Positions 20,985 through 34,200 of a DNA stretch of 64,000 bases are shown here, one piece after another. The position numbers and the translations under genes were made by a program. The stretch's first letter is position 1, and every line of letters begins with the position of its first letter. The DNA comes from Membranipora membranacea (lineage: Eukaryota > Bryozoa > Gymnolaemata > Cheilostomatida > Membraniporidae). The stretch lies in the NCBI GenBank assembly GCA_914767715.1, contig OU612068.1:17424001-17488000 (forward strand), given 5' to 3'. Below the pieces are notes generated by a model, which saw nothing but the letters and a program-made list of their open reading frames with translations, ran no database searches and had not been told where the DNA came from.

Positions 20985-22068
20985 ATGGGAAATGACAGTT
21001 CACACCACAAAGATCCCTACTCAACTAATGACTTTGAACTAGTGATCAGATTGGCCAAGGAACTGGAGTACTTGCTTGGAACTTATTTCCATGCTACTGG
21101 GAATGGGCTTGGTAAGTTTTCCTTTATCTGGTTTGGCTTTTGTTCTGAAAGTGTCTATTGAAGGTAAATTTGAGGTAACTTAACTAAAATTATTGCTTCC
21201 TGCTTGCACTGTAGCGTATAGTTGTATCTATTTCACTTGCTAAGCGTGTAAGTATAAGGTCCCCATCACTCTAACTTAGCCCACATAACATCGAGCCGAT
21301 TTATCTTAGCATTAATCTGCCCAACCTGGGAGGTCTTTCAACTAGAAACAGCCCCAATCGCAATCTGATCGCTCATTCAGGAAGTGAGCAATATACCTGC
21401 TAGGCTCTTGCTTTCAGATCGCACAGTCATTGATGAAGCTATATACATTCTGACTGACCGATTTGGGAGCGATTATTGTCTAATTGAAAGACCAAGTGAG
21501 TGATAATTTTGAGCGATGGATGGATTTTATTACTATAACTGACAGCATTATTAAAAGAAAAAATGAGTCGCGAAATACAGTGTAATTGCTGGCACTTTGA
21601 ATCAGCAAGAAAAAGCGAAGACACTTGGAATAAAAAATCAAATCTCTGTCTAAAAAAGTATTTCGTTTAAAATAAGAGTGATATGATGCAGAAAACAGTC
21701 TCTCCCCAGTGAGCTACTATGTTTAACTGATAGTGATAACTTTCTTTAGTAAAGCATCTCTCATTCTAATTGAAAGACCCCCCTGTATCATTCTTCACCA
21801 TAATTTCTAATCTATACCTATATTTCTCTCTGTAGGTGACAAGATAAACTCAGCCACACATAATGGACAACCTCTACCAAAACATTTAGTTCATCCAATG
21901 TGGAGATTGAACAAGGAGCGAAATCAGCTCGTGCACAATCGTGAATACAATGCTATTAAAGATCGACAGACTTTCATAACCACATTTGAAACTGTGAAAA
22001 AGAGTCTCCAAGACATGATACGACCTCCTGGACAGTCTTACAGCCAATCAGGGTGCTTGATATCTTAA
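20985..22068 (+). CDS. HEPN-A: small HEPN-domain protein with N-myristoylation signal
   Basis: The two exons are 20985-21111 and 21836-22068, with a phase-1 intron (G|GT), and encode 119 aa. The protein starts MGNDSSH, with Gly2 and Ser6 fitting an N-myristoylation signal; there is no nearby cysteine. A helical region follows, with ELVIRLAKELEYLL at about 18-31 and NGLGDKI at 40-46. The key motif is RNQLVH at 71-76 (R-N-x3-H). A further helix carries RQTFITTF. The layout matches the HEPN superfamily, small four-helix domains whose conserved Arg and His form the active site in the members that are RNases. This is the most compact of five paralogues in the window, with almost no linker. Family membership is inferred from motif and helix pattern; substrate and role are unknown. 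Confidence 0.8.
21325..21785 (+). repeat. intronic MITE-like repeat, GTCTTTCAATTAGA ends (in HEPN-A)
   Basis: The left end cctgggaggtctttcaacta and right end ttctaattgaaagacccccc form inverted repeats. An internal gtctaattgaaagacc at about 21479-21494 suggests that one copy is nested in another. Interior words aatcgcaatctgatc and gatagtgataac recur in the copies at 24871-24943 and 26333-26466. It lies wholly in the HEPN-A intron. Confidence 0.65.
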
Positions 22069-31200: not shown

Positions 31201-34200
31201 ATAACACTCAAAGCTGGGAATGCAACTGTAGTGAGAATAGGAGTGAAACACTAGCTAAATCGGATGTAGACCTGACTATTAAAGCATGTAAATTCCTAGA
31301 ACATATCCTTGTGAAACTACATGGTATACCACAGAGCAACGCTGGTTTAGGTAAGTCTTAGTGAGTCTATCTACTACCATATTGAGGGTATATGAAGCTT
31401 ATCTTGCAGTTTGCAGCTTGCTTCCAAATTACATAAAAAAGCCAACTGAATACCTGGTAAAGTTAGGTTGTCAGAAATACACACAATCTATATTATCTGA
31501 ACCAGGAAATATTACCTACAATAATGGTTTCAGCTAGAGTTTAGACCCGGACTGGACTTGCCATTACTAAGGCCGCAAACTAACTGCCATTGGCAGGTGA
31601 TGGATTTCAAACTGAGCAGTTCAGGTGTCCCCACCCCCAAAATGACTGGAGTAATACAACATCGGAATATTGGTGTGTACCTTTTCCTTACAGGAGAGAA
31701 GATAAAGGTAGCAAAAGAGCAACAAATAATATCTGCTGATATCAACAATCGATTATGGAGGCTGAACGAGCAAAGGAATGAGTTGGCGCACACTTTTGAC
31801 AAAGATTCCTTAGTCAGCAGAAGAAGATTCATGAATGACTTTAGTACTGTTGTAGCCACATTGAACAGACGCCGTAACATGAGTGCACAACTACTATCTC
31901 GATACCGAGAGATTCTAAATTATGACAATAATTGATATAGTGCATACATTAGTACAAAATGATTGTCTAAGTGGCGTAATAGAAAAGACTACGCGAAAAT
32001 AAGTCCGATCAAATAATATTTTTATAACGATAATTCATCCAAAAATGATATTTTTTTCTGAAATCTGACAATCAAGATAAAATCTAGATGGAATGGGTAC
32101 ATTCAGATGAAAGTTTATTAGAAAGTAACAACATCTCATGAAATTGTGACCTCATTCTCTTTAAAATCCAGGCAAGTGTCAGATTGCGGGAGTTAAAGTC
32201 TTTAACTCCGTGGTCAGATTGCGGGAGTTAAAGTCTTTAAAGTCAACTTATCGTATTGTTAAACAGCCTACCTTTTTGAATTTAACAGGCTGAATTTTTT
32301 CATATAATATTCCTCTTTACCAGGTATCAGATAACAAAGTTTGAATAGTAGAGTTGGTAGATAACATTATTTCATATAGTTGGAAATAGCAGGAAGAGTG
32401 CACTTGACGATAAGAATTTAAACCAAAGGTAACAAATTAAATGTAATGCATTGCTAAAATTGTCATTAACAGTAGCACCAGAGACTATAGATATCTATAT
32501 ATATCTATATATATATAGATATCTATAGATATCTATAGTCTCTGGTAGCACCATTTGGTTAAACAGTAGTGAGATAGGTGATGGGAAGTTATTGGTCCGC
32601 CACGCGTCCTGAAGACGATTCAACTACTAGTACGAACAAGTATGTGGACATTGAGGCATATCACCAACCAGCTAGAACCACAGCAACCTATCTAACTCAT
32701 AGTTATCAGGCTGCCAGCAAGTATACAGACCTAGAACTAGCAGTCAGAGCAAGCAGATTTCTGGAGCATATACTGACAGAAAAACATAATAGAAATGAGT
32801 CTAAACTAGGTAAGTAGCGCAGAATTTTACATGTTCAAATGATGAGTGCATTCTGCAACGCAATGAGGTTTATGATGCAATGACATGACACTTACAATTT
32901 GCATTTTACCAATGCTTCAAATTTTCCAACAGGTGAAAAATTGACAGCGGCAAAAGATCGCCATGTCATCAGCAAAGAAACTTATACACAATTTAAAGAA
33001 TTCAATCAACAAAGAAATGATTTGGTTCACGATATCTACACTGATGAACTTAAAAGTCGAGCGAAGTTTATCAATTTCTTTAAGGCAGGAATTGAAGAGC
33101 TAAATAAACATCAAAATATGGCCAATGAACTCTGGGATATTTACAACAACATTATAAGTAACTCATGAATCAGACTTTGGTAGTGAGGAGAATTGACTCG
33201 AAATGCAAGCAGACCAAATTTAAACAATCAGTCAGCAGGTAGAGAGAAGCATGTCATGACAAGCATGACATCACAGAGTAAGGATATATATCCTTACTCT
33301 GTGATGTCAGGCTAGGTAGAGAGCTACACCAGCTTGTTAGCACTTCAGAGCTTGTCTCACTTCTAGTTTATAAATGAGACTAGCATGTCAGGTGCACAAT
33401 TGATTGCTGTCTTTTTCGTTCCTTTTTTTCAGCCAGAATTTTTGAAACATTCCATACAGAATGAAATTACTGCCAATAAAATTGTTGACATGAATATCTA
33501 TAACCCTCTTCCTAAGTGACAAGGCACAGTCGGTGACTGTTGAACTTAAACAAGTTTGGTCCATTTGCCTGCATTAGGAGTTGCCCTACTCCACTGGTCA
33601 CGCCGCAGCGGAAGGGGAGCAACCGGAACGCAGGCAAATTGGATCAAACTTGTTCTAGTGTTGAACCGTTGTTCACACTAGGATGAAGATATAAGCATGC
33701 TTTAGGATATACACACTTACCATGGACTCCCTTCTCAGCTCGGCGTACATGGAGGCTATTTTCTCCTGATCCATCTGGTGAAGTTTGGGATGTATTCTGT
33801 TCTTAGCGTATATGATGTACTTTTTCAGCAGATCTTGAGGTATTTTTTCTACGCCATCATCAGTGTCAACCTAATGAGAAAAGAGTGAACAGTCCAAGTA
33901 ACGTAGTACAAAGATAGTGGCATCGCTTGGTGAGAGTTCCTCATTAAAGGGAATCGGAGGTTTTGGAACACCTTTTCTTCTACGGAGCAAAAATGGGCAG
34001 CCATGGCATGAAAAACACATTTACTAATGATATCCATAAAATTATATTCAATTGAAAAGATATCTGCGTATCTTTTATGCCAAAGAACAAACTTTTTGCT
34101 TTTGAAACCTCTGTTTAGCTTTTAAGTTGCAAAAGAAAATATCCGCAGGTGAACTCTCATTATTTGATGCAAGTCTCACATGGAAACACTGAAACATTGG

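Follow-up and report, generated by a model that had tools for sequence, protein, structure and literature searches.

The stretch analysed here, a 64,000-nt window (contig C4 17424001-17488000) of the 339,339,785-base, 18-contig genome of the bryozoan Membranipora membranacea, holds five complete two-exon genes, g1 to g5, which lie on the + strand from 20985 (first ATG) to 33168 (last stop) and whose exons and splice sites were read individually (Table 1). Each encodes a small protein that begins with Met-Gly and carries an R-N-x3-H motif within a HEPN domain. Every one of the five introns has GT-AG borders and phase 1, and all of them interrupt the HEPN domain at the same place. In every gene the Met-Gly codon is the first ATG, 1 to 15 codons past an upstream in-frame stop; no competing ATG lies between the two.

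The five genes belong together. When a profile built from four of the HEPN domains was run against the held-out fifth, it scored 52.5 to 76.9 bits, compared with at most 13.7 bits in 2,000 shuffles of each domain. Since the held-out scores are so far above the shuffle maximum, g1-g5 are, by sequence comparison, of common descent beyond real doubt. Gene models and held-out profiles thus confirm the original prediction of five + strand two-exon genes with Met-Gly starts, one shared phase-1 intron and R-N-x3-H, and three of its details need adjusting: the Gly-Leu-Gly string said to mark the intron is exact in three of the five genes, whereas g3 reads GGLM and g5 KLG; the myristoylation context of g2 and g4 is loose; and the array is interrupted, by MCM2 on the - strand. 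Orthologues of g1 occur in Watersipora subatra (69% identity) and Bugula neritina (57%) and are consistent with the g1 splice junction, which is supported because the database proteins of both span it unbroken. For the g2 donor there are two candidate sites, two codons apart, the alternative being 6 bases upstream; an exon resembling g2 exon 1, which is mostly tail, is present in another source (52% identity over 72%). Contamination is ruled out by the introns, the neighbouring animal genes and the g1 orthologues in two other bryozoans.

When the six frames of the window were scanned with the profile, no sixth family member emerged (E 0.97 for the next best hit), and a possible g2-like exon-end relic at 22644-22675 (32 bases, 78% identical) was dropped, as no exon-2 partner stood out. 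The introns of g1, g2 and g3 have common stretches around 'CTTTCAATTAGAAAG' (21320-21785, 24884-24948 and 26333-26466), partly inverted, which could reflect ancient homology of the introns or else a repeat that they share. Near g3 and g5, at 32477-32546, 26555-26596 and 25927-25957, short inverted-repeat elements recur (CCAGAGACTATAGATA... and its complement) that look like small mobile-element remnants.

The whole genome was searched with g4 and g5 and with the HEPN domains of g3 and g7 at E up to 10; besides the array and one weak place on contig C2, the best candidates included one further locus, on contig C1 at ~7.413-7.417 Mb. The C2 place (E 0.698) was rejected, as the sequence inspected there contained no family member. 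Spliced in the way of the array genes, the second locus yields two genes, g6 and g7, each encoding two HEPN domains. The protein of g6 has 365 aa, starts MGNCFTCC and has a repetitive tail rich in Gln, Tyr and Pro; that of g7 has 425 aa and starts MGNCCVSC, although a single further ATG lies in frame 12 codons before it. All four HEPN domains of g6 and g7 are interrupted by a phase-1 intron at the array's intron site. Hence, the family in this genome comprises at least seven genes with nine HEPN domains at two loci. The tails ahead of the HEPN domains range from ~13 to 215 residues and appear low in complexity, g1 being nearly tail-less. The family had been described as locally expanding; that description is incomplete, given the double-HEPN genes on another contig and the good conservation of g1.

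Table 1. Coordinates of the family genes and of neighbouring features (window positions unless a contig is given)
Feature	Position	Strand	Description
g1	20985-21111 + 21836-22068	+	119 aa
g1 exon 1	20985..21111	+	MGNDSS start, HEPN first half; orthologues in Watersipora and Bugula
g1 exon 2	21836..22068	+	RNQLVH; C-terminal CLIS, CaaX-type box
g2	24214-24793 + 24980-25209	+	269 aa
g2 exon 1	24214..24793	+	MGNSCA start, tail of ~164 residues, HEPN first half
g2 exon 2	24980..25209	+	RNRTVH
g3	25987-26269 + 27068-27315	+	176 aa
g3 exon 1	25987..26269	+	MGGCFS start, tail, HEPN first half
g3 exon 2	27068..27315	+	RNILVHNY
g4	31092-31350 + 31694-31935	+	166 aa
g4 exon 1	31092..31350	+	MGNCCK start, tail, HEPN first half
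g4 exon 2	31694..31935	+	RNELAH
g5	32581-32809 + 32933-33168	+	154 aa
g5 exon 1	32581..32809	+	MGSYWS start, tail, HEPN first half
g5 exon 2	32933..33168	+	RNDLVH
Second locus	contig C1 7412933-7417270		two Met-Gly genes, g6 and g7, three exons each, long polar tails
MCM2 intron	30094..33720	-	holds g4 and g5; MCM_lid split across flanking exons; GT and AG edges read
USB1-type gene	17300-19050	+	upstream of g1; two exons match Pfam HVSL, one of them exceeding the cut-off

HEPN fold and motif

That the family is HEPN is well supported, because fold, an invariant motif and one curated-profile match agree. The Watersipora g1 orthologue was modelled with confidence as a four-helix bundle, for which HEPN proteins head the PDB alignments made by a second aligner, and the model of a bacterial relative from Gemmata is also a four-helix bundle, its PDB comparison being led by HEPN chains. 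The motif R and H are invariant in all 24 aligned domains, and the second domain of g7 passes the Pfam HepT-like profile PF01934 (27.5 bits against a cut-off of 23.5). The HEPN fold proposed for the R-N-x3-H proteins is upheld by these results. The superfamily signature is R-x4-6-H with a polar residue following the R; R-x4-H is present in all nine family domains of the genome, the residue after R being N in seven and R in two. The HepT form of the motif is R-x4-H-x-Y, and three of the nine have it (g3 and the second domains of g6 and g7). The motif was not taken as sufficient by itself: R-N-x3-H occurs 14 times in the window's six-frame peptides of at least 25 residues, and a HEPN call from the motif alone was discarded, as nine of these strings fall outside HEPN domains, one of them in g3's own tail.

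Foldseek alone gave no match below E 0.001. The 50 structure matches listed by the second aligner include no chain named as DZIP3- or Swt1-type, which excludes nothing. Sequence searches against solved structures yielded no significant match: one was empty up to E 10, another up to E 1, and in a third the best hit was HepT at E 0.67. The other six family domains scanned fall below the curated HEPN-clan cut-offs, with the second g6 and first g7 domains outside that scan, and the NCBIfam HepT matches of g3 (20.7 bits), g4 (14.6) and g5 (19.1) are weak against a cut-off of 60. None of the seven members scanned gave a match to the DZIP3-type profile PF18738 (E limit 10, HMMER filters applied), and the DUF4145 profile had no match in the whole genome; a DUF4145 match of g1 was left uncounted, as it falls outside the HEPN motif region. 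Among PADLOC defence profiles, seven families were each hit by one of the seven members (best E 0.00053), with no consistent family.

Predicted membrane anchors, bacterial relatives and proposed origin

All seven family genes start Met-Gly, and in five of them one or more of the ten N-terminal residues are cysteines. The protein of g1, with no N-terminal Cys, ends CLIS, and its orthologues end CLIC and CVIS, all CaaX boxes. Thus, six of seven genes combine Met-Gly with a second predicted anchor, Cys or CaaX. PROSITE PS00008, which we take to be the usual N-myristoylation pattern, fits three of the five array genes; g2 (Pro7) and g4 (Lys6) depart from it, and the myristoylation-like context claimed for all five is loose in these two. 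As background, 54 of the 1,361 + strand ATGs in the window precede GGN; the genes are related, so no probability follows from this count. By hydropathy, none of the seven bryozoan genes has a C-terminal hydrophobic segment after HEPN, and in g6 (1.57) and g7 (1.65) hydrophobicity peaks where the first HEPN domain begins.

Outside bryozoans, the closest relatives found are bacterial HEPN proteins of ~115 residues. Searched with the Watersipora orthologue, plasmids gave six records and phages seven, all of them insignificant (best E 3 for plasmids, 0.5 for phages). The domain-spanning plasmid rows were a Salmonella hypothetical protein (E 4) and a 115-residue Variovorax protein annotated DUF4145, matched at an insignificant E 6 and raised to E 3.9e-10 by profile comparison. 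The Variovorax protein and a relative from Alteromonas supplied two N-terminal peptide patterns, with which a scan of a genome collection gave 12 bacterial loci, ten planctomycete and two Vibrio. Eleven of these loci and the two plasmid proteins form a 13-row alignment; the remaining locus (L006) was omitted, its frame departing from the family after about residue 71 without a hydrophobic segment. Compared by hhalign with 11 bryozoan domains, the 13-row profile matches with a probability of 98.9 and E 1.5e-17 over 90 columns, and its score of 99.5 compares with at most 20.2 in 200 column-shuffled controls and 13.4 in the reversed one.

Members of the bacterial family, which include proteins of Gemmata, Vibrio, Variovorax (DUF4145 domain-containing) and Alteromonas (hypothetical protein), consist of one HEPN domain and a C-terminal hydrophobic helix. 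This segment is present in 13 of the 14 members examined, 12 of them with a mean hydropathy of at least 1.6, and in one further genome. The five scanned with Pfam are under every cut-off. The family is sparse, being found in two of 149 genomes from Gemmata's phylum (the Gemmata genome included), in Vibrio and on plasmids, with one copy in each of the two genomes checked. No neighbour gene is common to every bacterial locus; inspection by eye shows a small membrane-protein gene at both Vibrio loci and neighbours in common among some of the planctomycete ones. We found no function for these bacterial proteins, and assays of the animal members would therefore inform both. The bryozoan proteins resemble them in whole-domain homology (D-x-E start, LE-x-x-L, G-L, RNxxxH and R-x-x-F) and in joining one small HEPN domain to a predicted membrane anchor. 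The bacterial members differ in being intronless, in having HEPN from the first residues and a C-terminal hydrophobic helix, and in lacking both Met-Gly and tail.

Membrane tethering, as first proposed, is thus suggested by the lipidation signals and by the hydrophobic helix of the bacterial relatives, both of which are features of sequence. Attachment may have been retained while the type of anchor changed, and such an exchange would account for the CaaX box in g1 alone. The g1 lineage is, by identity, the least changed of the paralogues: it reaches 35-37% to its best bacterial match, other paralogues 23-29%, and the sole place in the bryozoan genome found with the Gemmata protein is g1 exon 2 (E 0.44, specific but not significant alone). 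In an unrooted tree a single branch (96/88) sets all bacteria apart, and g1 and g2 lie closest to them (91/97), the placement of the long g2 branch being unsure. A single acquisition from a bacterium by a bryozoan ancestor, followed by multiplication, is the most economical history; the direction of transfer is one that we infer. Among the matches listed for the literature on bryozoans and horizontal transfer, as far as those sources were accessible, no bryozoan genes of bacterial origin appear.

Taken as a whole, the genes are probably best explained as a bryozoan family of lipid-held, small cytosolic HEPN proteins of bacterial origin. Several observations weigh against this explanation or parts of it: strict PS00008 fits four of the seven genes and g5 is without a second signal; g1 is well conserved, which is not what a fast-evolving immune gene would show; and the word-limited protein searches also missed the bacterial relatives. 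Because those searches missed even the bacterial proteins, the absence of the family from other animals is weak evidence. An old animal or eukaryotic HEPN lineage, inherited vertically, may have been lost or left unsampled elsewhere, its likeness to bacteria reflecting deep ancestry, which is compatible with either an enzymatic or a scaffolding function. HEPN lineages dating to early eukaryotes exist, according to the accessible text of PMC3710099, and the tree is unrooted. However, the g1 lineage shares 36-37% identity with the Gemmata protein, whereas identity among the bacterial members themselves falls as low as 33%, and the whole-domain profile match to bacteria is very strong; we regard vertical descent as somewhat unlikely.

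Possible function and comparison with known systems

The proteins are predicted to be N-myristoylated at Met-Gly and, in six of seven, held by a second anchor, through palmitoylation of adjacent cysteines or, in g1, prenylation of the CaaX box. A variable tail is followed at the C terminus by a single or double HEPN domain in which R-x4-H is intact. Ribonucleases of the HEPN type work in pairs, their active sites forming where two domains meet; none of the papers listed for the paired HepT site was relevant. Crowding at the membrane, or the fused double-HEPN form, would favour this paired, RNA-cutting state, and g6 and g7 fit a built-in pair. RNA would then be cleaved or sequestered at the cytosolic membrane face. 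The corresponding history would run from one bacterial acquisition through exchange of the helix for lipid anchors and gain of the intron to duplication into at least seven genes at two loci.

Genuine RNase activity is, on balance, the favoured expectation. The competing idea is that these are membrane adaptors rather than enzymes, in which HEPN would serve simply for dimerisation or RNA binding, and the long, variable tails as docking platforms for signalling partners like those of myristoylated scaffolds. The varying length and low-complexity look of the tails, the conservation of g2 exon 1 in another source and the replacement of the Asn after the motif Arg by Arg in two of the nine family domains suit it, but invariant R and H in every aligned domain would be needless in a pure scaffold, and g1 has nearly no tail; we consider adaptors unlikely. 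An immune role is possible but doubtful. More speculative, and unlikely as a whole, is that a captured bacterial membrane HEPN ribonuclease exchanged its transmembrane helix for lipid anchors (myristoyl with palmitoyl or prenyl) and expanded into RNA-destroying membrane effectors with one or two HEPN domains, like prenylated OAS1/RNase L, perhaps antiviral against RNA viruses that replicate on membranes.

MCM2-type Pfam domains (WH_MCM2, MCM_lid, MCM and MCM_OB) occur in 6 of 10 scanned - strand frames between 37.8 and 29.1 kb, the final MCM2 exons lie between g3 and g4 on the - strand, and a probable N-terminal exon was placed by eye near 40.5 kb. The HVSL gene upstream of g1 is presumably USB1. 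Beyond MCM2, a SAP-domain exon at 45522-45716 (-) seems to us to resemble SARNP, and - strand frames at 42.9-44.9 kb, without Pfam match, may join that gene. By eye, we take 50061-54847 (-) to be a rabenosyn-5-like gene, 57268-58826 (+) a BMT2/SAMTOR-like gene and 61464-62807 (-) a sulfotransferase-like open frame of 447 codons. No antitoxin- or partner-like gene was seen around the array, and the 19 neighbouring frames scanned with Pfam contain no nucleotidyltransferase. A toxin-antitoxin-like pair of the MntA-HepT kind, in which a linked partner restrains a HEPN ribonuclease toxin, is highly improbable: HepT-like is the sole curated profile passed, and the NCBIfam HepT matches and the R-x4-H-x-Y domains lean the same way, but the identified neighbours are MCM2, USB1-type and SAP-domain genes and the bacterial loci have no universal partner.

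The family shares with MntA-HepT, a type VII toxin-antitoxin system, the fold, R-x4-H and, in the second g7 domain, a score over the Pfam HepT-like cut-off; it differs in having no MNT antitoxin gene in the scanned frames and H-x-Y in a minority of its domains, and we know of no lipid-anchor signals in HepT. It resembles published animal expansions in the lineage-specific multiplication of HEPN genes within one animal group. In the accessible text of PMC3710099 these comprise the DZIP3/hRUL138 type (Nematostella, oyster), the Swt1 type (Daphnia, 46 copies), KEN (Oikopleura) and paREP1/8 (Caenorhabditis), and such expansions are interpreted as defence. They concern other HEPN families; the seven bryozoan members scanned have no DZIP3- or Swt1-type Pfam match. 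The same text reports membrane-associated bacterial HEPN proteins; lipid anchors go unmentioned and the word "myristoyl" is absent from it. The remark that no animal system with this layout had been described holds insofar as neither a lipid-anchored HEPN protein nor this family was found in the literature covered (including PMC3710099 and PMC8195603, in their accessible parts, with most subscription journals and bioRxiv outside its scope), but it has to be set beside these published animal expansions and bacterial membrane HEPN proteins (PMC3710099).

The HEPN fold and motif and the trend of HEPN expansion in animals are already known, and what is new is the predicted lipid anchoring, the predicted double HEPN behind a lipidated tail and the bacterial connection. 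If true, an animal phylum would have re-engineered a bacterial membrane HEPN protein by changing its anchor, not its catalytic domain, and would offer a small, defined gene set for testing RNA decay at membranes by proteins other than those of the Ire1/RNase L (KEN) lineage. OAS1 is, to our knowledge, not a HEPN protein, and its prenylated p46 form with RNase L is a functional analogy only, the likeness being lipid-directed, RNA-targeting immunity at membranes. According to the accessible texts, prenylation of OAS1 p46 widens antiviral reach at membranes, acting through RNase L (PMC8357416), which itself bears a HEPN-superfamily (KEN) nuclease (PMC3710099). Since animal HEPN expansions are read as defence and OAS1 p46 is directed by its prenyl group, a membrane immune RNase in bryozoans, while not proven, is a reasonable idea.

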